From: Bryum argenteum
Taxonomy: Eukaryota > Streptophyta > Bryopsida > Bryales > Bryaceae
DNA length: 64,000 nucleotides
Assembly (NCBI GenBank): GCA_037043015.1
Contig: CM073322.1
Coordinates: forward strand, 11,853,601-11,917,600
Direction: 5' to 3'
Shown: positions 4,356-58,400 of the stretch, piece by piece
How the letters are laid out: every line of letters begins with the position of its first letter
How positions within the stretch are numbered: position 1 is the stretch's first letter
The notes under the pieces: generated by a model
Database searches by the model: none
Seen by the model: only the letters and a program-made list of their open reading frames with translations
Told to the model about the DNA's origin: nothing
Program-made: the position numbers and the translations under genes

Positions 4356-4406
4356 TTGCCAAAATATGTGAATGTATTGAGCAATGTATTTAATAAAATT
4401 TCATTC

Positions 4407-7400
4407 ATGGTGTCAAAGTGTAGGTTGGATATGGATCGGGGAGAATATATGAGCAATAAGGAGAATGTTCCTCCGTCCATCAATCACGTTACACCAACCC
4501 GAGAGCAAAGTCACGGAAGTCACGGACAATTATCATTGGGGAGACGAATTTTAGCATCTACATCAGGCCATAATCGACGCAATAGTTCTCCTTTGAATTC
4601 GGCACAAAGATTTTGTAAGAGTAAGGAACAGGTTGGTGTGCATCTAAAAGATAGAAATGGGACAGACATAGGAAGAGGAATTCTAGAGACAAAATTTCAA
4701 GTAGGCGACAGTGTTGGAGGTCTTATTTTGTTTCCCCATCAATGCGCTGTCCGTATTTTAGAAGTTCATGCAACAGGACTTGCGAATATAAATGAAGATG
4801 GCGAATCCATGGTAGACTGCATTGGACAGATTATTCGATGGTCGAAGGATTCAATCAAAGCGATTGAATATTACAATGGTAATAGTCCAAGTTTTAATGA
4901 TGTTTCCCGCCGTTTTGATTTTTCTGAAGAAGGGCCCTCTGGATCGAGCAACCATGTAGATCAAAATTCAAATTTTAGAAGTGAGGACCACGACAGAGGA
5001 TGCAACGATTCACCACATGAACAAAGTCCGTCAATGATACACCACATACGCAGTGTATCTGGGATTGATGGATTGCCACAAAGCTCTCAGAAGCGAAAGT
5101 ATGTGATGGTTCAACGTCAAACGCAAGAAGCAAGACCAAGAAAGATTGGGATAGCACGGTCTGAGAAAGTAACACTCAGAAATGTGCAGATTGACTTGCG
5201 ATCAAGAAATTGCTCAAAAGGATGCTTGGAGAAGTTGGACACAAGTGTTGTGTTGATGAAGCGATTCAAAGCATGGGGATCAGAGAAGTTTGAGGAGAGG
5301 GCATCTTGGATTCTTGAGAGCCTTACAGATGTTTACAACGCTGAAACGAATAAGTTTGAGACAAAACTTTGTGGGCAAGACATATGCAATGGTTGCTATG
5401 CAATTGCGCTTGGATATTCAAGAAGGCGGATTGAAGAACTGAAATCGGACATCAGAAGCAGGGGGATTGTTTCACAAGTGCATGATATCCAATGCAATGG
5501 CAGAATATCGGCAGTACACGGAAATACTATCCATGTATCACGTACATCACCCGGGGTACAATCAATGAGGACAATGTTTGAGAGATTTGTAAGAGAAGCC
5601 GGATGCACTCAACCTCATAGACAATGTCGGAGAAGGAGTGATAATGAAATGGTGCCACTAGTACTACTGCCCGTAAATACTACACGAAAGGATGTTTTTC
5701 TAGCAGTGTCAACAAACGTGGAGAAATTGACACTTGAAAAATCACCCGGGGAGTGTTCATTTTATCGTATGTGGCGCGAAGAGTATACTTACGTACAAAT
5801 ACCACCAAACTCTCGATTTTCCAAATGCCAGATTTGTTGGGAATATCGAACATGCTTGGAGTCAAGTACCACAAATCCAACACAGAAGCGTTTGATTGAG
5901 GAAAATTTGTTACTACATCAAGCATTACAGATTGAAGAGAGGAAGGATTACTGGGAGGCTAAAGATAATGCGAAATTGTTTCCAAACCAATCTCTTTGCT
6001 TGATCGTTGATGGGATGGACCAAAATACTACAATGGTACCAAAGTTACGGCAATCTGTGAAGGGATTGGAAGGACGCTATGTGAAGACACATTTGTGTGG
6101 TGTACTTGTACACGGAGAAGGATTGTATTCTGATGTTTGGATTGACTCCCATCACAAGCATGATAGCAATCAGGTGATTACATCGATAATGTATGCTATT
6201 GCCGATGTGAAAGCTCGACGTGGTGGCATTCTTCCTCCAACCTTACGCATCCAAGCGGACAACTGTGGCAGAGAAAACAAGAACCAATACATGTTTGGTA
6301 TGTGTGCTGCACTTGTGGGTTTGGGCTATTTTGCAGAGATACATTTAGCATTTCTTCTTGTTGGGCACACGCATGAGGACATAGATCAAAGGTTCAGTGT
6401 TATATCTGGAGTACTAAAGCGCCAAGACATTGATTCAATGCAACAATTGTTAGACTTAGTGAAAGGAGGCACATCTCTCACAGAATCATTCAGGAGTTCT
6501 CGTCACTTGGAATACATCTGGGATTGGAAGAAATTCATCACTCCATACATGTATACAGGTCCAGACGCATTCACGGGGATTTCCAAACCCCATCACTTTA
6601 GGTTTTATTTGAAAAACAATAAACCATTTGTTAAGAGCAAGGACTATGCTCGAGATTCATCTTGGGAGCCTGCAAACGGCTATCAATGCCTAAATGAAGT
6701 GCCGGGAGGAGGTTCAAAACCGGAGTTTGCCAAAGTGGAAGAGGCAACTGAACAAGAAATGAGAGCTTTGGAGGAATTTATCAAATGGAAAGAACGATGC
6801 ATCTTGAAGTTCATGCATGTTGAGCGTAATCTACAAGCCATTGACAATACAAAGTGGTTGTTACAATATCTCGACGAATTTCCCAAGAAGAGCAACTCAG
6901 AAGTGTGGGAACAATCGAACTTTTGGCCTGAACGTATAGAGTCGCAAAACCATGTTGAGAGGGAGGGGAATATGGATGGACCTGGAGGACTTCAAGTAGG
7001 CGAAGGCGGTTTGGACGCACCAACAATCTTGAATCATCTTCCAGAAGTACAAGAGAGGGGATATTTTGGGCCGAGGCGTGACAAACCACGAAAGAGAAGT
7101 TACAAACCCACAAGGAAGCAAGGACCTGCTTATACGGCACACGTTACATCTTTGGAGGAATCCACATTGGACCCTTATCCAGAATTTAATCCATTTAACG
7201 ATGTTAAAGTTGGGCATTTTGTTGCTATGAATAGCAGTATCGATGATATGAGGTTAGGCATACCTTTTTTTCTAGGAAAAGTGAAGGCTACAAGAAATGT
7301 TTCTGCAAGATCAGGAAGCATGAAGGTAATATGGTATTGGCCGAAACCAACAATTCTGCAAGATGATCCAGGCATGTGGACTCATAGATATGAAAAATGC

Positions 7401-7652
7401 CTAAAACGAAGATGGATTCCTTCTTATGAGCCGTCGAATTGGGTGGACTTAGATACAGCAATTACCTCATGGGCACCATCTTCAAAATTCGAGACTTGTA
7501 TGGTTGAAAAAACTAGTGTGGAGAAAGAAATATCTATTTCAAAAGCAATGACTTTTCATCTCTTGGAGCACATGGCAAATCAATCTCATACAACTAATGA
7601 CGAGCAAGTGGACAACAGTGGAGATGCAACAGAAGAAGATGACTTAGAGTAG
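4407..7652 (+). CDS. DUF7869-like, transposase-like long ORF (single exon)
   Basis: An uninterrupted frame runs to the TAG at 7650-7652. The first ATG in frame is at 4407 (1081 residues); the frame is open further upstream, so an upstream exon is possible. Residues numbered from the open-frame start at 4356 show: a polar, low-complexity N-terminus (about 1-110); a Cys-rich segment near 346 (CGQDICNGC); a CxxC near 490 (KCQIC); then the core, with LIVDGMDQ near 551, QADNCGRENKN near 632 and LVGHTHEDIDQRFS near 668. The last two motifs are those I associate with the DUF7869 family, which has a wide eukaryotic distribution and looks transposon-related. The acidic residues could form an RNase H-like D-D-E/D site; that is inference. 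The C-terminus is basic then polar. No flanking inverted repeats were found, so it may be a domesticated transposase or an element with decayed ends. Confidence 0.75.
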   Translation: MVSKCRLDMDRGEYMSNKENVPPSINHVTPTREQSHGSHGQLSLGRRILASTSGHNRRNSSPLNSAQRFCKSKEQVGVHLKDRNGTDIGRGILETKFQVGDSVGGLILFPHQCAVRILEVHATGLANINEDGESMVDCIGQIIRWSKDSIKAIEYYNGNSPSFNDVSRRFDFSEEGPSGSSNHVDQNSNFRSEDHDRGCNDSPHEQSPSMIHHIRSVSGIDGLPQSSQKRKYVMVQRQTQEARPRKIGIARSEKVTLRNVQIDLRSRNCSKGCLEKLDTSVVLMKRFKAWGSEKFEERASWILESLTDVYNAETNKFETKLCGQDICNGCYAIALGYSRRRIEELKSDIRSRGIVSQVHDIQCNGRISAVHGNTIHVSRTSPGVQSMRTMFERFVREAGCTQPHRQCRRRSDNEMVPLVLLPVNTTRKDVFLAVSTNVEKLTLEKSPGECSFYRMWREEYTYVQIPPNSRFSKCQICWEYRTCLESSTTNPTQKRLIEENLLLHQALQIEERKDYWEAKDNAKLFPNQSLCLIVDGMDQNTTMVPKLRQSVKGLEGRYVKTHLCGVLVHGEGLYSDVWIDSHHKHDSNQVITSIMYAIADVKARRGGILPPTLRIQADNCGRENKNQYMFGMCAALVGLGYFAEIHLAFLLVGHTHEDIDQRFSVISGVLKRQDIDSMQQLLDLVKGGTSLTESFRSSRHLEYIWDWKKFITPYMYTGPDAFTGISKPHHFRFYLKNNKPFVKSKDYARDSSWEPANGYQCLNEVPGGGSKPEFAKVEEATEQEMRALEEFIKWKERCILKFMHVERNLQAIDNTKWLLQYLDEFPKKSNSEVWEQSNFWPERIESQNHVEREGNMDGPGGLQVGEGGLDAPTILNHLPEVQERGYFGPRRDKPRKRSYKPTRKQGPAYTAHVTSLEESTLDPYPEFNPFNDVKVGHFVAMNSSIDDMRLGIPFFLGKVKATRNVSARSGSMKVIWYWPKPTILQDDPGMWTHRYEKCLKRRWIPSYEPSNWVDLDTAITSWAPSSKFETCMVEKTSVEKEISISKAMTFHLLEHMANQSHTTNDEQVDNSGDATEEDDLE

Positions 7653-11854: not shown

Positions 11855-13711
11855 CTATTTGGAGCGCCTTCGCGCCTCTGCTTCTTCACGCTTCCGGGCT
11901 TGCTCAGCCTGACGCCTCGCCTTCTCGCGCTCCTTTTCAGCCTTCTTTCGCTCCGCTTGAATCCGCCGTAAGACCCTCTCCGCTTCTTTTCTTGCTTTCT
12001 CGGCTTCTTTCCGTGCCTTTGCCTCTTCACGTTCAGTTTTTCTAAGCTCCGCTTGTTTCTTGCGTGCCTCTCGCTCTTTCGCTACAGCTTCTCGCTTTGC
12101 GACCTTCTCTTTCATTGCTGCGATATACTCTTCAGAAGTCATAAGAATGGATTTTGAATAGTCAATGACTGGTTCAGCTTGTGAGCGGATTCTTGTAGGT
12201 CGTTGCAGGTGCGGCAATGGGAAGAGATTGCGCGGCTCGAGACTTGGCGGAGCATCTCCTTCGGAGTCCGTGTCTTCGTCACCTTCTGTAAAGTTTGCAC
12301 TGTCTGATTGTACGAAGTACTGTTGCGTTTCACGAATGCAGGGCTCACCCTCCTCCATAGTCCATACCGACCGGGTCTTCGTTCATGTCGGCACTCATAG
12401 CGCCGTAGCCGGAAAAGTAACTGTCCCCTGTCGCAGACACTCCTTGCAGATTGACGGCGCCCAGCGGAGCCAGCTCCGACGCGGCCTGCTCCTCGGACTC
12501 GGAGTGCTGGTGTGAGTCGGCCCTCTGTAGATGTCGACCATCGTCTCCGTTGTCGCAGTGCCGCAGGTCGTCCATCTGGTCATCTTGATCTGAATCAAGT
12601 CCTTCAACATCGTCGCCTCCTTCCATAGTTTCAACGAAGCATGAGCTAGGCGTCATGTGAGACTCCATTGCTGTAGGACGTAGGGGCCATATCCCTGTGG
12701 CTGCAAATCCCTTGACAATTTTTTGAGGTGTGAGTGCCTTTTGTAGCCCTAGTGATACCCATTCTGCCAGTTCCTCTTTTTGTGCTCCACGACCTTTGTT
12801 TTGTATAGTCCATTTATCCCTGTATTGCCGATTAGTCCATTTATCCCTGTATTGCCGATTAGTCCATTTATCCCTGTATAGTCCATTTATCCCTGTACTG
12901 CTTGTGCTCCCGATTCATCTGCATTCCAAATGTAGGTGGCAGGATACTTGTAGCGGTCGTATGCTTCTTCAAGGTTTTTGTAGAAAGAAGCTACATTACT
13001 TGGATTCAGAGCTCTTGCGCGTCCCTCTTCCAAACCTTGTGCGGATCTTAGCGTCAACTCTGGATGGCGATATCTAAACCACCGAAGCCATCCACGTCCA
13101 GGTATTCCGTCTGTAAAGGGTGTCCAACGCTCTTGCGTAATTTCTGTAACTTTGCTTTTAAGTTCCATCACTGAAATGGGATGAGCGTGGTCTTGCATAT
13201 CTAGAATCCAACGTACCAGATTTGTTTCCTCTTCGACAGTTAAGACTCCTTGCCTCCCTTTTTTCCGCTGCAAAGTTCTCCCGTAGACATGATCCCTCAG
13301 CGACGACGTTGGAATTCCAAAATCCTTTGCTACAGTTGCAATTTTGTTACCGGCATCTACTGCTGCAATCGCTGCTTGGAGTTGAGAGTCTGTCCAAGTA
13401 CCTGTGCATTTCTTACGGTGAGATCCACTTCCGCTTGGACCTGCCAGTGATGATCGACGAGTCTTTGGCTGCACTGCAGGTACTTTGGCCGTGACCCTCG
13501 CTTGCCCACATCGACCGCCCCTAGCTCCGACGTCGGCCAGGGACTCTTCAACGAAGGCAGGGACGCTGCTGTAAACCTCGGCCACGTTCCCTTCAAGGAC
13601 TGGAGCGCGGCTCTGTACATGAACTCCGGCTATGTTGTCGCCATCCCGTCGCAGTGCAGCAACCGCGCCGCCTAAACCTGCAGTGTGTCCATCCAATTCC
13701 TTGCATGTCAT
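11855..13711 (-). pseudogene. pogo/Tigger-like DDE transposase relic, catalytic core lost
   Basis: Reading the minus strand from 13711, a frame carries a Ser/Gly-rich lead and then a Pipsqueak-type helix-turn-helix near 13300 (WTDSQLQAAIAAV, then VAKDFGIPTSSLRDHVYG). A CENP-B-like second DNA-binding region follows (about 13240-13060; LVRWILDMQ, GWLRWFRYRHPEL), and then the first catalytic Asp segment, YIWNADESG, near 12915. The rest of the DDE domain is missing. In its place is a 27-bp tandem repeat (12807-12898). Two further frames (12668-12345 and 12358-11855) encode an acidic linker and a Lys/Glu/Arg coiled-coil tail that starts ILMTSEEYIAAM, the usual C-terminal end of this family. The copy cannot be active. 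No terminal inverted repeats or TA duplication could be assigned. Confidence 0.8.
12807..12898. repeat. 27-bp tandem repeat inside the transposase relic
   Basis: Unit AGTCCATTTATCCCTGTATT plus GCCGATT: two complete copies (12807-12833, 12834-12860) and two 19-base partial copies up to 12898. It occupies the place where the missing DDE core should be. Confidence 0.9.
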
Positions 13712-14129: not shown

Positions 14130-14869
14130 TTTGCAAATATTTCACTCAATCTAAACGAAAGTGCTAGCCCAACACATCAGCCTTCAAGGGGCACATCAAC
14201 TTTGCTTCACTCATACAAGTATCGTGGTTCTTACGCCGTTCTTCTTGACTGCTCATAATAATAAGCAAAAAGTTTCTCATAACCGTCGTATTGGCCCCAA
14301 ATATGTTCCCACCAATTAGAAATCACAAGATGACTGCACCTTTAATTGCTGTCATTACCCCCAAAACTGCTCGGTAAGCTTCTATTAACCAACTTCTGCA
14401 ACACTTAAATATTTACTGACATGAAAATGCCTTGTCATATATTCCCTCGTTGTCGGCATTTATTTCCAAACGCATGTTCACCTTATATCATTACACTGTC
14501 CACCTACTACCGTCATTTTTATCAAGATGCCGGTCATGGGACTCAAAGCCACGCTGAACAATACTAATATAGGTCACGCCCATGGGAACAGTCACGGTTA
14601 TGCATGCTGCTACCTTAAGTAGAGTAACAATAATGAGCAACACATTTTTTTGATGAATGAGCAACTGTCACATTGACCATGTAAGAGCGAGCTTGAAGTA
14701 GAGTATGTGCAATAGATGACATTGACGATTAGAGCTTAGCAAAGGAAAGAGAAATTTCACAATGTCACCTCCAACATCTGTTTAAGGGAAGTCAAAAGTC
14801 GAAGTCAAAAAAGTTCAAGCACTGGATAGGGAAGGCATTGTAATGCTAATACTAGAGATCTATGATTAA
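14130..14869. other. Intergenic, no gene seen
   Basis: No coding signal, repeat array or element ends were recognised between the transposase relic and the TTAA-flanked element that starts at 14870. Confidence 0.5.
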
Positions 14870-15128
14870 CCCCTAACCCTCTTTGTTGCAAAACGGTCTA
14901 GTCACAAAATTTGACCTTCCTTTAGATTAAGCTCAAAAAATCTCAATCCAAGCATTATTTAAAAGATTCAACCGTAAGATCTCAAAGTTCACTTGACATT
15001 CTTCTCACATACCAAATTTGAACCGTTCATTCTTTCTCATTTGTGAGATTATAATGGTCAAAGTTGGCTGAGTTTTTCTCTTGCAGGACCCTCCAAAATC
15101 CGTTTTGGGTTTTAAGGAGAGTTAGAGG
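14870..15128. mobile_element. TTAA-flanked MITE, family X (copy X1, 259 bp)
   Basis: Flanked by TTAA at 14866-14869 and 15129-15132. Ends are CCCCTAACCCTC on the left and GAGAGTTAGAGG on the right, which are inverted repeats with a few mismatches. A second copy (X2, 49983-50607) is in the opposite orientation and has the same 259-bp length once its nested insert is removed. No coding capacity. TTAA plus CCC ends point to piggyBac or Sola3 rather than to other plant DNA transposons. Confidence 0.85.
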
Positions 15129-15142
15129 TTAAGACCCCATTT

Positions 15143-20201: not shown

Positions 20202-20205
20202 TTAA

Positions 20206-20567
20206 CCCTTAAACGCCCAAGCAAGCCCGAGGGGCTTGATTCCAATATAATCTTCTCTGTAGCTCTCACTGTAATCAACTTTTCACTTATATTTTGATGT
20301 CAAACTGGTCATCGTCTTATGATGCATTCAAAAAGTGAAATTTTACAATTCAAATCACAATTTGTATGTATGATTTTATGGTTTAAAAGGATTGTGGTAG
20401 GTAGGTTGGGGTTGTACATAACCTTGTAGGTGGTTGCAAGCTCATCATTGATTGGATCATTCATGGTGCCCAAGTTCAAAAAGTGCACTATTCATGATGC
20501 CCAAGTCCAAAAGATGTTGTGATCCAATTTTGGGCTGCCCGTTTTAGAACCCATGGGCGTTTAAGGG
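20206..20567. mobile_element. TTAA-flanked MITE, family Y (copy Y1, 362 bp)
   Basis: TTAA at 20202-20205 and 20568-20571. Terminal inverted repeat CCCTTAAACGCCCA. Other copies of the family are at 27290, 28837, 50000 and 57062; three of the five copies are exactly 362 bp. A shared internal landmark is TTTTGATGTCAAACTGGTCA. No coding capacity. Confidence 0.9.
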
Positions 20568-20716
20568 TTAAGGGTTAATGTACTAGAATCAGCAAATGAA
20601 GTTGAATGAAAACATTTGTTAAACCAACTTAGGGTATGTCAAAGTTTTAGGACTTAGACAACAAAAATCATATAAAAATTTGTCATTCTTGCAATATGTA
20701 ATTAAGAGGCATTCAA

Positions 20717-21234
20717 CCCCTAAAGGCCTAAGCCTTTTCTTAGCCTTCAAAACCAAAGACTATGATGTTTTGACCACTTTGTGCAAGTTGACGTAAGATT
20801 CAATATTTTTCACTTTTTTTATATTTCCAACGTCAAAACTTCACAATGATTACTTGCACTAATACCATGTCAAATTTCAACCATTGGATTTTTACCATTT
20901 GTGAGATCACAACGTTCAAGTTGATGTGTCAAGTTTTTTTGAAAAAACCTTGAAGCTTGTTCTTGTAAAGTTTGGAGGTGGTCGTTGTAAATTTGGTAAG
21001 AGCTTGAAACTGTTTCTAATAAAACTTGAGTAGGATTATTACAATAAACCTATCTTCAAAAAATAAAAATAAAAATAAAAAGCATTAATTTAAAGCTACC
21101 CCAACTATCTCAGTTTGGGATTTGATGTTGCAAATTCTCACACAGTTATCTTGTAGTATAGAAAACATCTAGTAAAAATCTTAGGTTACCCCAAACAGCA
21201 AAAGCCCATTTCAGGTTGCTTAGGCCTTTAGGGG
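20717..21234. mobile_element. TTAA-type MITE, family Z (518 bp)
   Basis: The ends are inverted repeats of CCCCTAAAGGCCTAAGC. The right side is flanked by TTAA (21235-21238); the left flank is TCAA, one change from TTAA. The interior has the motif order of families W and U (a Phe/Leu-like T-rich core, then CCCCAAACAGCAAAAGCCCA near the right end), so these are related. Confidence 0.8.
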
Positions 21235-21611
21235 TTAAGATGCCTTCCTCCACTCAGAAATTTGGACTTAAGTGACCACTGAAAGAGGACTTGGCGTAAG
21301 GTACTTTCAAAGTGTAAAAGAGAAACTTTTGCATGTGGTTTCTTATAGTTGGAACAAAAGAAAAATTGGTTATCAAAGTTTACCACGTCCCTCACCATAA
21401 ACTTAAAATAATTAGTACTTTATCATTAAATCCTCCTAAACCGGCCATTGAAAAGATTACTTGTCACAAAATCAAATTGTAATGTGCTATGTGGTCCACT
21501 CTAGTGTGATTTCACAACTTCTTATATAAGAAAACACATTAGCGTTGCAGATACATATTTAGGAATATTTTTATGTTGCATGCGTTGTTAGACTTGCTTT
21601 AATTTCAACTT

Positions 21612-27285: not shown

Positions 27286-27289
27286 TTAA

Positions 27290-27660
27290 TCCTTAAACGC
27301 CCATGGGGTCTAAAACGGGCAGCCCAAAATTGGATCACAACATCTTTTGGACTTGGGCATCATGAATAGTGCACTTTTTGAACTTAGGCATCATGGGCAT
27401 CATGAGTGCACCAATCAATGATGAGCTTGCAACCTCCTACGAGGTTATGTACAACCCCAACCTACCTACCACAATCCTTTCAAAGCACAAAATCATTCAT
27501 ACAAATTGTGATTTGAATTGTGAAATTTCACTTTATGAATGCATCAGGAGAAGGTGACCAGTTTGACATCAAAATATAAGTGAAATGTTGAGTAGAGTGA
27601 GAGCTACAGGGAAGATTCTGCTGGAATCATGCCCCTCAGGCTTGCTTGGGCGTTTAAGGG
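27290..27660. mobile_element. TTAA-flanked MITE, family Y (copy Y2, 371 bp)
   Basis: TTAA at 27286-27289 and 27661-27664. Opposite orientation to Y1. Left end TCCTTAAACGCCCATGG (first C changed to T), right end the inverse of CCCTTAAACGCCCAAGC. It carries a short internal duplication (GGGCATCATGAGTGCACC region) that explains the extra 9 bases. Confidence 0.9.
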
Positions 27661-27664
27661 TTAA

Positions 27665-28832: not shown

Positions 28833-28836
28833 TTAA

Positions 28837-29188
28837 CCCTTAAACGCCCAAGCAAGCCCGAGGGGCATGATTCCAACAGAATCTTCCCTGTAGCTCTCAC
28901 TGTACTCAACATTTCACTCATATTTTGATGTCAAACTGGTCACCTTCTTCTGATGCATTCAAAAAGTGAAATTTCACAATTCAAATCACAATTTGTATGA
29001 ATGATTTTGTGCTTTGAAAGGATTGTGGTAGGTAGGTTGGGGTGGTACATAACCTTGTAGGAGGTTGCAAGCTCATCATTGATTGGTGCATTCATGATGC
29101 CCTTGTTCAAAAAGTGCACTATTCATGATGCCCAAGTCCAAAAGATGCTGTGATCCAACTTTGGGCTGCCCGTTTCAGACCCCATGGC
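28837..29188. mobile_element. TTAA-type MITE, family Y (copy Y3, right end lost)
   Basis: TTAA at 28833-28836 and a good left end CCCTTAAACGCCCAAGC. The body follows Y1 to CAGACCCCATGG, but the final GCGTTTAAGGG and right TTAA are absent; the sequence continues CCACTGGCTAACTGG. Terminal deletion or replacement. Confidence 0.85.
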
Positions 29189-43515: not shown

Positions 43516-46500
43516 CTAACTACAGACTTTCGTCTCCGTTCCAGGAAATCCTTGCCTCGAAGAAAGAGAGAAGTTACGGCCGTCTTCCACAACGCGTAGT
43601 ACTGGAGAGGCAACCATAGGATGTACTGTGCCATGCCGAATCTCCACCTTGAGTGCGCGTATGCGACCAACAACCTGGTTTAGGTCGGCCACCAGATGCT
43701 CCATCAACACGGGGTTCCCAGTGACCTCATCGTGCAATGAAACAATCAGCTGCCGGAGTGATTCGGCTACATCGGGGACAGCATGATTCCTCCTCACTGG
43801 AGTCTGCTTCGGAGTGGAAACCGGGGATGGAACAGGGCATGCTGTATCGTCATCTGTCACGGTGAGTAACACACGACCCATACCTCCTTGGGCATTACCT
43901 GCCTGGCGACCGCAAAATCTGGCAATTGTTCCTTCCGCAACATCGGGGCGTATCATCAACAAAACCTTTACCACATGCTTGCAAATGTTACCTCGTTGAG
44001 CCCACATGCAATTGCAACCAGCCCACTCTTCTCCGAGATTATGAACCACATACCGAGTGTCACGATTGCTCTGTGATGTTACAAGTGCATAGTTCCCAGG
44101 GAATTGATCCAGAGAGACATCGGAGTCGGGAATGTTGCGTGCCCTCAGAAGCGCAGATACGACAACATCCTGCATTTTCTTGTTGTCCACGAAACCCATC
44201 TCTTTTCGCAATCGCTTATACCAGAAATGGTCGTGGACATCCTCCGTGAGAGTGGTGATACTCCAATCGACGCGGCGACCAACCATCCGAGTTCTTTCGG
44301 ACTTAAGCGCGATTTTTAAATCGTGATACCCTTCTATAGCCGCATTAGTGTCTTGGCCGGCATAAGGTAAGTTTCTGTACCCTACCACCCACATGTGGAC
44401 CTTCTTCAACCACTGGACCTTCATGTACTCCCAGAAATCGACCTCCATGGGATACTTGCAACTAAGGTCGTCAATCCTTGTAGCTGCCCAGGTTTGGGAG
44501 TCGGGTCCTGATGGCGAGGTAGGGTCATACATCATTTGACCAATGTCACGTAAAACTGCAGCACGTATGTGCGCATCCTTGATTTTGTAACACGAATGTT
44601 TTTGCCAAGCACGCCGGACATGCCAAAGGCATAGGAATATTGGGACCATGGGCCGATCATCATCATCGTACAACAACACATATCACTCGGTGTCGATGGC
44701 AAATACGATATGTGACTCTAATCAGCAATAAAAAGATGACAAATTCAGAACCACCTCATGTGGTCAACTAACTTTAAAGCGTTGATCTCGCCCTGAGCGC
44801 AGTCTACGATGAATGCAGAAGGCTCCCAAGTGGGATTAGCCGTCCTCATCCGGACATTCACGGCACGCATCCATGGAGTAAGGTCCGTCTCAGCACACCT
44901 AGACGTGAGTATCCAAGCCACCGGAATCCCTTGCTGCCACTCGTCAAAAACCATGATTGTGTACAAGGGGAACTACGAGGAAACAAGGATATGCATTAGC
45001 AAAGTGTAACACTCACACAATCTAACACCGATACATGAAAGGTAAGTAAGATAAACCTATTTCTATAACGATAACTTTGGAGTAAAGCTACCTACAAATG
45101 GGCGCAAGATCGAGTTATCAAGTCAAAAGCAGAATGCAACCACATCCTAGTCACAACAGATGACACTAAGGAATGATAGCATCCAAGGCACGATGACTAC
45201 GTACCTTTTTCTCATTTGTCCCGAATGTGGCGTCTATGGACACACCACCTCCGTGACCATACTTAACCATCATCTCTTTCTGCCACGGAGTTTGTATACC
45301 AATGGTAAACGGAATGTTGACTCCCGTCAAGCTGCCCTGCACAGCCTCTGGATTAGACAAATCCGTCTCATCAGTAATGGAAGACCTTGTCCATGTTTTT
45401 TGGACCCACATGCGTACACTCTGAGCGTCATTTGAATGCAACATCCACGTCTCCTTGGCATGCTTCCGTGCAATGTTTCGAATGTCCTTCGGGCTAATAA
45501 GAATGTCACGAGTGATAACCTTCCCATCTGCTTCCCAAGAGCTTAAGAACTTAAGATGTTTCTTCATTATCTGGTGAACAGTGTAGTTCTCACGCAAGCA
45601 ATGATCTATGAAATCGATTATCATCGGCGATAAGCGAGCCGATAACGCTCCACGGTCACCAACCTTCATTCCACCGTGAACCACCAAACCATGATTGTTC
45701 ACATGCCGATCTTGAAGGACACACCTCAGCAATGTGCGGTGCATGTAAAAGGATCTTAACCGTGAACCGAGCCTGACATCCCCGCTTTATAGACATGCCC
45801 CACTTCTTCCTCGAGTCCCTTGTCTTGACCCCAAAGAGCCCATAGGTACAGTACCTTCGCAGCGGTGACAATGGGAGATTCGGATGTAGTATCCGGAATC
45901 GATTTAGGAACCAATCAGCACTCTGTATCCACTTTGTAACACCAACACACGCGCGATGCAACACTCCATAGAACGATATAACGAGAGGTTGTGACATTCG
46001 GTGAGATGAAAATACCGTTTGACTCATTGTTAGACGAGGTGGCGTGGGGAGCGAAGTGACACCGAGCATTTGAGGAACGCCGAATGTGGCACCTACATAT
46101 AACCGGGCACTCATAATGTGAGAGTGACAATGTTACGATGACACTCAGTATTATCGAATCCGAAATGTCTTGGTTATGATGTAATAACACGTAACCAACT
46201 CCAAATTTGTATGTGAAGATGAGAAAAATTGTAGGCATTCTTACCATTACCAAACTCCGCGGAATTAGAGAACGCAGCTCCTCGTTAAGATCGGGAATAG
46301 GCTCGATGATGTCTAAACCCATCTCATCAAGATGAATGACACATTCCCCATTCTCTACCGATCCTCTTTGACAATGATCCACATCGGGCTTCACCCAAGG
46401 AGAGAACGCAGAGACAGTGAGGTATGCGTGATACGGGGAATCATTAAGAACCCACCCAGGTTTCTTGCGAATTAATTTTTTTGGTCACAAGAGGTCCATC

Positions 46501-49792: not shown

Positions 49793-49982
49793 TAAGAGAT
49801 GCTCTAAGGTGACTCACAGTATGAAAAGGTTTGTATCATTGTGTAGTCAATATTCATGAGAGGATGATTCATGTCAATTATTACATTGAGTTCAATAATT
49901 TACAGGGCTCACTGTTGACTTGTTCAATTGAATTGATTACAGAGAATCTGCACTCCTGTTAAAGTATATCGTAAAAGCTTAA

Positions 49983-50607
49983 CCCCTAACTCTCCTTAAC
50001 CCTTAAACGCCCAAGGTGACCCGAGGGGTCACCTTCCAACAGAATCTTCTCTGTGGCTCACATTGTACTCAACTTTTCACTTATATTTTGATGTCAAACT
50101 GGTCACCTTCTTGTGATGCATTCAAAAAGTGAAATTTTACAATTCAAATCACAATTTGTATGAGTGATTTTGTGCTTTGAAAGGATTGTGGTAGCGAGGT
50201 TGGGGTTGTACATAACCTTGTAGGAGGTTGCGAGCTCATCATTGATTGGTGCATTCATGATGCCCTTGTTCAAAAAGTGCACTATTCATGATGCCCAAGT
50301 CCAAAAGATGTTGTGATCCAATTTTGGGCTGCCCGTTTCACACCCCATGGGCGTTTAAGGGTTAAAACCCGAATCGGGTTTGGAGGTTCCCGCAGGAGAA
50401 AAACTCAGCCAACTTTGACCATTATAATCTTACAAATGAGGAAGAATGAACGGTTCAGATTTGGTATGTGAGAAGAATGTCAAGTGAACTTTGAGATCTT
50501 ACGGTTGAATCTTTTAATTAATGCTTGGATTAAGAATGTTTGAGCTAACTCCAAAGGAAGGTCACATTTTGTGACTAAGACAGTTTTGCAACAAGGAGAG
50601 TTAGGGG
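49983..50607. mobile_element. TTAA-flanked MITE, family X (copy X2) with Y4 nested inside
   Basis: TTAA at 49979-49982 and 50608-50611. Left end CCCCTAACTCTCC, right end the inverse of CCCCTAACTCTCCTTG. Total 625 bp; removing Y4 (362 bp) and one TTAA leaves exactly 259 bp, the length of X1. Oriented opposite to X1. Confidence 0.93.
50000..50361. mobile_element. TTAA-flanked MITE, family Y (copy Y4, 362 bp), inserted in X2
   Basis: TTAA at 49996-49999 and 50362-50365. The uninterrupted homologous site in X1 (complement) reads CTCTCCTTAAAACCC with a single TTAA, so this is a filled/empty site pair that proves TTAA target duplication. Confidence 0.95.
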
Positions 50608-50611
50608 TTAA

Positions 50612-52666: not shown

Positions 52667-52670
52667 TTAA

Positions 52671-52895
52671 CCCTTAAAAGTCCCTTGGGGATAGTATGTA
52701 CGCCGTCGTATAATTAGGAGTTGCTACCAACAAGAAACTCTAAACTGGAATCGTAATAGCTCACTAGAACCACATTAATTCAAATGTCAACTTCTTCTTT
52801 GAACTCAAACCCGTTAAAGGTGTGCATTCACTCCAAATACAACCAATTTACACCGTATTCTATTGGTCGCCACGGCACGCTCAGACCTTTAGGGG
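52671..52895. mobile_element. TTAA-flanked MITE, family T (copy T1, 225 bp)
   Basis: TTAA at 52667-52670 and 52896-52899. Ends CCCTTAAAAGTCCC and the inverse of CCCCTAAAGGTCTGAG. The interior (GCTACCAACAAGAA, then AAAGGTGTG) is shared with T2 at 56272. Confidence 0.85.
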
Positions 52896-53242
52896 TTAAA
52901 AGAGAGTGCTAAAAAATGGAGCATTACTAATAATGGAGCGCTAGGCTTCTTAACCCCTTAAAGCTTCCTAGTGTTTTTCGGGAGCTTAAGACCTCAAAAT
53001 TGCGAGTTTCTACTTGCGAGGAATGTTTTTTGAACATTCAATTGTAGGGTCTTGTACCTAACCCTATTTTTAGTTGTTGTTCCATAGATCAACAGTTAGA
53101 TGTTTACCATTTGTGAGATGATTACATCCAAATTTTGTCTTCCTAGTTTTTTTGCGTATTGTAGAGATCGGTTTTGAATTTTTTTGGAGGGTGCCATTGG
53201 AGATTTGGTAATTTTTTTGACTTGGGTCACTTTGGAACTTAA

Positions 53243-53820
53243 CCCCTAAAGATCCTTGGGTGTTTTTGGGAGCTTAAAACCTCAAAACTCCAATTCTCTA
53301 CCTCTATGCACTTCAAGGGGTGCGAAACAATTTTTTTATTCTTTTCTTAACTTCCAACCGTAAGATCTTGTACCTAAGCCAATTTTCAGTATCTGATATA
53401 AAAATTGACCGTTGGATGTTTACCATTTGAGAGATTATAACATCCAAAGTTTGTCCACGAAGTTTTTTTGGGCATTGTTGAGATTATTTTTGACACTTTT
53501 GGAGGCTGCCCTTGTAAAATTGGTACACTTTTTGACTTGGGGCCCTTTGGAACTTAAGTAGTGATTTGGTCATGAACATATTTCCAAAAAAAAATCTCAA
53601 AAAAATACTAAATTTAAACTGCCCCAGTTCGGCTCGCAAACCAAGAATTGTTGTAGAAGACTCAAAAATTGGAATTTGGCTTTGTAAATTTTACCACATA
53701 CACTTTGCAGTATAGGGAGCACCCATTAAAAAATTTAGGCAAAAATATTACTTTTAACCTATTCATCTAAGCTGCCCAAAATAGCAAAAGCCCGATTTGG
53801 TCCTCTTGGATCTTTAGGGG
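53243..53820. mobile_element. TTAA-flanked MITE, family W (copy W1, 578 bp), inserted in W2
   Basis: TTAA at 53239-53242 and 53821-53824; inverted ends CCCCTAAAGATCC. W1's own interior keeps the uninterrupted form of the site it landed in: TTTGGAACTTAAGTAGTGAT near 53547. So W1 inserted into the equivalent TTAA of a sibling element. Confidence 0.93.
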
Positions 53821-53846
53821 TTAAGTAGTGATTTAGTAATCAAGAA

Positions 53847-57057: not shown

Positions 57058-57061
57058 TTAA

Positions 57062-57423
57062 CCCTTAAACGCCCAAGCAAGCCCAAGGGGCATGATTCCA
57101 ACAGAATCTTCCCTGTAGCTCTCATTGTACTCAACATTTCACTTATATTTTGATGTCAAACTGGTCACCTTCTTCTGATGCATTCAAAAAGTGAAATTTC
57201 ACAATTCAAATCACAATTTATATGAATGATTTTGTGCTTTGAAAGGATTGAGGTAGGTAGGTTGGGGTTGTACATAACCTTGTAGGAGGTTGCAAGCTCA
57301 TCATTGATTGGTCCATTCATAATGCCCAAGTTCAAAAAGTGCACTATTTATGATGCCCAAGTCCAAAAGATGATGTGATCCAATTTTGGGCTGCTAGTTT
57401 CAGACCCCATGGCCATTTAAGGG
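57062..57423. mobile_element. TTAA-type MITE, family Y (copy Y5, 362 bp)
   Basis: TTAA on the left (57058-57061); CTAA on the right (57424-57427), one change from TTAA. Ends CCCTTAAACGCCCAAGC and the inverse of CCCTTAAATGGCCATGG. Confidence 0.9.
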
Positions 57424-57469
57424 CTAAAGGATTGACAATAGTCATAATTGAGCTTCATGTATCACTTAA

Positions 57470-58396
57470 CCCCTAAAAATCCAGGAAAGCCGATTCGGTT
57501 TTCTGAGATTTCGGGCAGCTCATTTTAAGCATTTAAACTGATATTTTTGCCTAAGATTTTTATTGGGTGCTCCACATACAGTAATGTGTATGTGGTAAAA
57601 TTTTCAAAGTCAAATTTTAATTTTATAACCTTCATCTAGAAATTTTAGGTTTCAAGTCCAAATCGGGCAGTTTAAAATATTTTTTTTTATTTTTTTATTT
57701 TTAGAAATATGTTCATTACCAAATTACTATTCAAATTCCAATGTGTCCGAAGTCAAAAAGTTTACCAATTTTACAAGGGCAGCCTCCAAAACTTTCAAAA
57801 ACAATCTTCACAATTTCTAGTAATTTTACAATTTTTTCTTTCAAAAATTGCCAAAATTCGAGATTTTGGATTTTTTCCAAGATTTTTTTTTTCAAAATTC
57901 ACATTATCATAAATGCACCTTCTCACCGTCGAGATTTTTCTCAAACTAAATATATCATACGTGGTGCTTGTTTTACTATATGGTTGTTTTTAGACCTTCT
58001 TTCATAAAATATTTTACATTAAGGTCAAAAAGTGGAATTGGTCTCTAAAATTTTGCATGAGCATAACCAACTTGATTACCTACATGAAAAAAAATGAGGG
58101 AAAAATATTTGGAATAACAATCATCAAGTTGCCCTTGGCACCATTTAGACAATGCCTCTCACGCAGTGGCAAAAAAAAAGTGTTGGTCAAACTTTGATTG
58201 TTATGATCTCACAAATGAAAAACATCCAACGGTTGAAATTTTGACCAGTCCTTTGTATACAAGTTAGGTACAAGATCTTACGGTTCAAAGTCTAAAACCA
58301 GAAAAAAAAGTTTCTCCATTTCCCCATCTCCCAACGAAGGTGAAAAATGGCAGTTTTTGGTTCTGGAGGTCGAGGAAACCCCTGGATTTTTAGGGG
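57470..58396. mobile_element. TTAA-flanked element, family U (927 bp)
   Basis: TTAA at 57466-57469 and 58397-58400; perfect inverted ends CCCCTAAAAATCCAGG. The interior resembles W1/Z1 in inverse orientation (GCCTAAGATTTTTATTGGGT, then TTTTAGAAATATGTTCAT). Longest TTAA element in the window; no coding frame that looks real. Confidence 0.9.
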
Positions 58397-58400
58397 TTAA

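Follow-up and report, generated by a model that had tools for sequence, protein, structure and literature searches.

PiggyBac is one of the main gene-transfer tools and has been studied mostly in animals. The element from Trichoplusia ni (T. ni; structures 6x67/6x68), the tip of which we take to be CCC as in the two families described here, resembles the moss elements in its TTAA target and in a DDE_Tnp_1_7 core with three Asp residues. TTAA elements are also found in land plants, e.g. the MITE Wuneng, whose host is presumably rice. The C-terminal domain of T. ni piggyBac binds, as a dimer, a palindromic repeat located in the left end of the element at bp 17-33, the other end being differently built (PMC7351741); the moss elements likewise have a palindrome in this interval at one end, with the other end arranged differently.

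The coral elements CMITE and CMITE-IN are similar in being short TTAA elements tied to piggyBac and in having a MITE at a TTAA within another TTAA element, but they belong to an animal host, are about 100 bp long, and CMITE-IN has direct repeats and no inverted repeats of its own (PMC2872659). The angiosperm piggyBac-class MITEs (PMC10004981) and Wuneng (PMC2872659) can be likened by description as TTAA- or piggyBac-class MITEs of land plants; they differ in that a transposase with matching ends is not described in the available text of these sources. The Kolobok/T2-MITE elements of Xenopus also target TTAA but have ends starting with AG instead of CCC and a different transposase (PMC6004289). 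PiggyBac has been named among the plant superfamilies, in plants, or as a class of angiosperm MITEs (PMC10794571, PMC10140906, PMC10004981), and the word is absent from the available text of a 2022 review that gives six TIR superfamilies for land plants (PMC9033089). No paper on piggyBac elements in mosses was found by title or beginning of the abstract among the open-access matches listed; a moss genome paper that matched the search uses "piggybacking" in another sense.

Nested TTAA elements and target duplication

The 64,000-nucleotide stretch of the Bryum argenteum genome analyzed here, hereafter the window, contains a pair of nested elements, X2 of the X family and Y4 of the Y family inserted into it (Table 1). 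The DNA between the outer TTAAs (49983-50607) is 625 bp long, with CCCC and GGGG at its ends, and Y4 occupies 362 bp (50000-50361) without its TTAAs or 370 bp with both. Without Y4 and one TTAA, X2 measures 267 bp with its own TTAAs and 259 bp between them. X1 (14870-15128, minus strand) has the same length of 259 bp and a single TTAA at the insertion place of Y4, as the initial annotation of this DNA had stated, and the two X copies are identical in 237 of 260 aligned columns. The inverted ends match over 19 of 19 bp in X2 and 20 of 21 bp in Y4. The target of Y4 is the TTAA at bp 14-17 of X2, with the first C taken as bp 1, and it is duplicated exactly.

Table 1 Positions of the TTAA elements and of their parts in the window
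Feature	Position	Strand	Remarks
X2, X-family MITE holding Y4	49979..50611	+	19-bp perfect TIR TTAACCCCTAACTCTCCTT
TTAAs of X2	left 49979..49982, right 50608..50611		
Y4, Y-family MITE in the TTAA at bp 14-17 of X2	49996..50365	+	TIR TTAACCCTTAAACGCC; ends as in L029/L033
TTAA target duplication of Y4	left 49996..49999, right 50362..50365		single TTAA at this place in X1
Y4 left-end palindrome, bp 17-33 (GTGACCCGAGGGGTCAC)	50016..50032		7/7 mirror pairs about bp 25; arms covary between families
X2 left-end palindrome, bp 18-33	50366..50381		7/7 mirror pairs once Y4 is left out
X1, X copy without Y	14866..15132	-	
Y copy, other palindrome subfamily	20202..20571	+	CAAGCCC/GGGCTTG
Y copy	27286..27664	-	
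Y copy, right end lost	28833..29187	+	
Y copy	57058..57427	+	right TTAA changed to CTAA
935-bp TTAA element	57466..58400	+	6/7 mirror pairs at bp 25
586-bp TTAA element	53239..53824	.	same end class; only 4/7 mirror pairs
233-bp TTAA element	52667..52899	.	palindrome absent at bp 25 (4/7)
526-bp TTAA element	20713..21238	.	one end TCAA; palindrome absent at bp 25 (3/7)

Besides the nested pair and X1, the window includes four further Y copies and elements of 935, 586, 526 and 233 bp with the same class of ends. An extra 7-bp TTAACCC is present at the outer end of a Y element (window 20565-20578) and of a transposase element (L035 5037-5050), which a simple nested insertion fails to explain. 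Other frames were noticed in the window as well. The 1098-codon open frame at 4356-7652 contains DUF7869 (PF25273, E=6.2e-53) and is repeated, because a 91% copy of its 3′ part is found in L066:1-1080, so it possibly belongs to another mobile element. The frame at 43516-46394 has a weak match to the SWIM zinc finger, below the Pfam cut-off, and looks MULE-like by eye, and the frame at 12887-13711 has a Tc5 transposase DNA-binding domain. For an F-box ORF in the window no named relative was found.

TTAA is present on both sides of 36 of the 38 full-length X copies and 27 of the 28 full-length Y copies, counting distinct copies from the window and the fetched loci whose BLAST alignments stop no more than 5 bases short of either end and excluding 13 X and 22 Y partial stretches; the expectation of TTAA flanks in other copies is thus borne out. 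The next base outward shows no excess of matches (4 and 6 out of 37 for X, 7 and 5 out of 28 for Y, with one copy per family listed twice). Nine nested loci were read at their junctions, namely L001, which is the window copy, L002-L008 and L014. In L001, L006 and L007, Y is located inside X at one and the same TTAA with both X ends present, and L005 possesses the same junction with the left tip of X missing. The converse insertions, X in Y, likewise duplicate TTAA: in L002, L003 and L004, which are clean, X sits in the TTAA of the right inverted repeat of Y and is followed by the Y tip GGGTTAA. L008 has the same arrangement with an eroded Y tip, and L014 carries an X-like family in that TTAA, with one base of the Y tip changed. 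In these reciprocal insertions leaving out the insert restores one TTAA. Both families thus carry TTAA in their own ends and insert into one another there.

The TTAA target is duplicated in both the X and the Y family. X1 and X2 are paralogous copies at two separate loci and not the filled and empty states of one locus, so the earlier wording that the nested insertion proves the duplication was too strong for these two copies alone, but the duplication stands for both families on the nested loci and the flanks. As TTAA is self-complementary, lone copies are uninformative, and it could be argued that the motif is merely a part of the inverted repeats with no target duplication; this reading is contradicted by the nested loci, where removal of the insert costs exactly one TTAA, and was rejected as highly improbable. 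An unlikely alternative, albeit one to be taken more seriously, is that the X-with-Y composite was formed once and moved as a 633-bp unit, in which case the three complete Y-in-X loci would represent one insertion. The site is indeed identical in L001, L006 and L007, their flanks differ, and their X parts (87-90% identical) and Y parts (89-92%) show similar levels of identity. Against a single event, the Y parts of the three loci are subfamilies with different palindrome arms, and X-in-Y insertions likewise share a single TTAA across different Y subfamilies, which suggests that the same site can be hit more than once.

A piggyBac transposase gene between Y ends and the position of X

Candidates for a coding element were taken from the first 100 listed of the 3775 exact Y ends, from which two inverted pairs 5-6 kb apart and two shorter ones were fetched. 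One of the long pairs delimits a 5,199-bp element (L029, the same as L033; C1:23339974-23345172) with Y ends (TTAACCCTTAAACGCC) on both sides and an 897-codon open frame. The second long candidate, L030, was rejected as a Y copy split by an insert with frames that are retrotransposon-like by eye. The sole Pfam match of the 897-codon frame up to E=0.1 is DDE_Tnp_1_7 (PF13843, E=1.4e-82, profile positions 1-349 of 349), and the frame also matches T. ni piggyBac (6x67, E=2e-29) and piggyBat (9c0f, E=7.7e-24), the alignment with the latter reaching residue 895 of 897. Residues D572, D651 and D764 align with three Asp of 6x67, presumably the catalytic ones. The C-terminal part contains C866, C869, C877, C880, C885 and C889, and this Cys-rich part has no Pfam match. 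A structure model of the relative P0001 (64% identity over residues 400-897), with a mean pLDDT of 69, has 6x67_C as its best Foldseek match (E=3.8e-29, TM 0.76 by target length) and also matches piggyBat.

The differences from T. ni piggyBac are the low identity (23% when P0001 is aligned by Foldseek), the start of the core at about residue 417 versus 121 in 6x67, which leaves about 300 more N-terminal residues, the element length of 5.2 kb and an extra exon-like frame upstream. The latter (L029:4942-5343, minus) lies on the same strand as the 897-codon frame and is matched in 11 fetched loci besides L029/L033 (E up to 0.01), with no Pfam match. Among the nine copies extending as far as its end (L029 and eight others), 7 show a splice-donor-like GTGAG there and 2 show GTGAT or GTGAC. 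Because of this conserved exon-like frame with a splice-donor-like end, the 897-codon frame probably covers only a part of the protein, and its sequence context suggests a longer, spliced transposase with a further N-terminal part. A repeat with a 63-bp period is located at L029:883-1118, outside the alignments with L034 and L035.

In the search for related loci 40 of 156 candidates were scored, at least 49 matching stretches were found, and 20 loci were fetched. Three of them, L033, L034 and L035, are full-length with both Y ends; L034 and L035 are 97-98% DNA copies of L029/L033 and have no full-length open frame. A Y-type end is present at 15 of the 20 loci, and 14, L033 included, align with the right end of the element from its first base over at least 42 bp. 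The dN/dS values of L029 are 0.14-0.40 against the 16 more distant fetched copies (L037-L052) and 0.49-0.61 against the near copies L034-L036. The MKAKPTQYG motif, searched as a degenerate pattern with up to three mismatches, occurs at 58 + 65 = 123 sites of the genome versus 0 + 1 in the control, and the sites span several codon haplotypes. The seven moss rows of a 40-row tree, which include partial frames, are placed together (branch 100/100), adjoining unnamed proteins and apart from the named animal proteins.

The CCCTTAAACGCC tip is present at both ends of Y and of the transposase element. The left ends of Y4 and the Y copy at 20202 are 43% and 49% identical to that of L033 over bp 14-130 (ungapped, 0 of 2000 shuffles as good), a homology extending beyond the shared 16-bp end, and all three have GTCAAACTGGTCA at bp 94. 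Over the same interval the right ends show no clear likeness (121 and 42 of 2000 shuffles as good). Both X and Y ends start with CCC, as had been noted from the window, with single copies varying to CCT, TCC or CTG, and the Y ends start with CC(C/T)T as in the piggyBac motif (PMC2872659). It can thus be considered settled that the Y family is piggyBac, with a piggyBac transposase gene located between Y ends. The initial annotation, which had named TTAA with CCC ends as characteristic of piggyBac beside Sola3 as another superfamily duplicating TTAA, and advised looking for a transposase gene with the same ends, is accordingly right on piggyBac for Y through L029/L033, while for X the probable assignment rests on the end architecture.

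The X family is probably piggyBac too, judging by its TTAA, CCC tip and palindrome at bp 17-33. It is possible to suppose that only Y is piggyBac and that X was moved by another TTAA-targeting superfamily, Sola3 or Kolobok. No transposase gene with exact X ends was found among the first 100 listed of the 906 such ends, nor did X ends or TTAACCCCTAA sites bracket transposase motif sites on C1 and C2, by eye, among the first 100 listed, so no transposase is tied to X ends. The subterminal 130 bp of X show no similarity to those of the transposase element (left ends: 1303 of 2000 shuffles as good). X nevertheless has a CCCYTAA tip and a palindrome placed as in Y and in animal piggyBac (PMC7351741), and Kolobok ends start with purines such as AG (PMC6004289). 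Kolobok was rejected for both families since their CCC ends contradict this purine (RR) rule (PMC6004289), and a foreign superfamily for X is on the whole improbable.

The palindrome at bp 17-33 of one end

Of 49 end clusters, drawn from the window and the fetched loci as a non-random sample of the genome with L001, L053 and L029 dropped as duplicates, 8 have 6 or all 7 of the mirror pairs centred on bp 25. The next best centres reach 2 clusters, and shuffling gave a mean of 0.08 clusters at bp 25 and a maximum of 3 at any centre in 1000 shuffles. In the cluster of X left ends the palindrome score is highest at bp 25; X2 reaches 7/7, and X1 5/7, which is no better than elsewhere in the X1 end. 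The window families of 586, 233 and 526 bp are without the palindrome (3-4/7).

A comparison of nine left ends, chosen for showing the palindrome so that the unbiased test is that of the 49 clusters, reveals arms that vary and are complementary at most positions. The pair at bp 17/33 is represented by G-C, C-G, A-T and one mismatch, and that at bp 20/30 by A-T, G-C, C-G and one mismatch, with CC at 21-22 and GG at 28-29 being invariant. The eight elements scoring 6 or 7 at one end score 0-2 at the other, left and right having been assigned in this per-element comparison by the higher palindrome score. Right ends gave nothing consistent when searched for a palindrome (scores of 5-6/7 at bp 87-94), and no counterpart of the T. 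ni right-end internal repeat came to light.

On sequence grounds, the palindrome is consistent with recognition by a protein dimer, and that of Y4 is proposed as a candidate site at which the C-terminal domain of the transposase would bind as a dimer. Y4 separates the tip of X2 (bp 1-13) from the X2 palindrome, and because of this X2 is probably immobile at that end. Tentatively, and with somewhat more doubt than confidence, it may be suggested that several coexisting piggyBac lineages of the moss keep the end layout and differ in the bp 17-33 palindrome, with each C-terminal domain reading its own palindrome. Such a specificity code would separate the lineages with their MITE swarms, the layout itself being retained between the piggyBac elements of animals and of the moss.

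Genome distribution and the proposed mechanism

The whole genome (258.8 Mb, 25 contigs) was searched for the ends. Exact Y ends number 1887 forward and 1888 reverse and exact X ends 455 and 451, and because the reversed-pattern controls gave 0 for both families these ends are beyond chance. TTAACCCCTAA sites number 8758 + 8938 versus 160 + 157 in the control. Taken over these patterns, about 21,000 ends genome-wide stand above the control, from which we infer some ten thousand elements.

Contig C1 (44.1 Mb, the largest whose length was seen) is strongly depleted of MITE ends, with 67 of the 3775 Y ends (1.5 per Mb versus 17.3 elsewhere) and 13 of the 906 X ends (0.29 per Mb versus 4.16 elsewhere). 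It nonetheless carries L033, the sole copy found in which the 897-codon frame is open throughout. C1 is possibly a moss sex chromosome. Interstitial TTTAGGG arrays (997 and 224 exact 28-mers) were also observed, on C1 among the matches listed.

Coding piggyBac elements of land plants are absent from the available text of the cited plant literature, which might point to animal or protist DNA in the plant assembly or to an assembly artefact. The element ends, however, number in the thousands, copies are present on each of the contigs C1 to C11 among the matches listed, the seven moss transposases in the tree group together, and the X copy L057 shares its locus with a moss TMEM208 gene. The ORF beside this copy (L057:172-693) codes for the TMEM208 protein; among named proteins its best match is that of the moss Ceratodon purpureus (85% identity, 100% coverage), outscored by four unnamed proteins, and the gene also agrees with the land-plant host presumed from the window. 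Contamination was rejected on copy number and moss flanks and is extremely improbable.

Taken as a whole, the data are best explained by X2 and Y4 being non-autonomous piggyBac-type transposons in a moss, a reading we hold with high confidence. In the proposed mechanism, elements of about 5 kb with Y ends would encode a piggyBac transposase that recognizes the CCCTTAAACGCC tip together with the bp 17-33 palindrome of one end, excises the element and inserts it into TTAA, which would thereby become duplicated. By this route Y4 would have entered an X element, at the latter's TTAA (bp 14-17). The L029/L033 transposase would move Y, its C-terminal Cys-rich domain may bind the palindrome, and X would be moved by a sister piggyBac lineage of the same genome. 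By parting the tip from the palindrome, Y4 would have disabled X2.

It had been suggested that such elements would be unusual as an abundant MITE source in a land plant, which holds for their abundance and host, but piggyBac and piggyBac MITEs have already been named for plants or angiosperms in the available text of several sources (PMC10794571, PMC10140906, PMC10004981). Membership in piggyBac is ordinary, and what is interesting is the abundance, the transposase lineage and the conserved end layout in a land plant. With more than 100 transposase motif sites, one full-length element whose frame is open and some ten thousand short derivatives, this moss would offer a plant-adapted transposase to test, and the covarying palindromes may serve as a natural data set on DNA recognition by the C-terminal domain.
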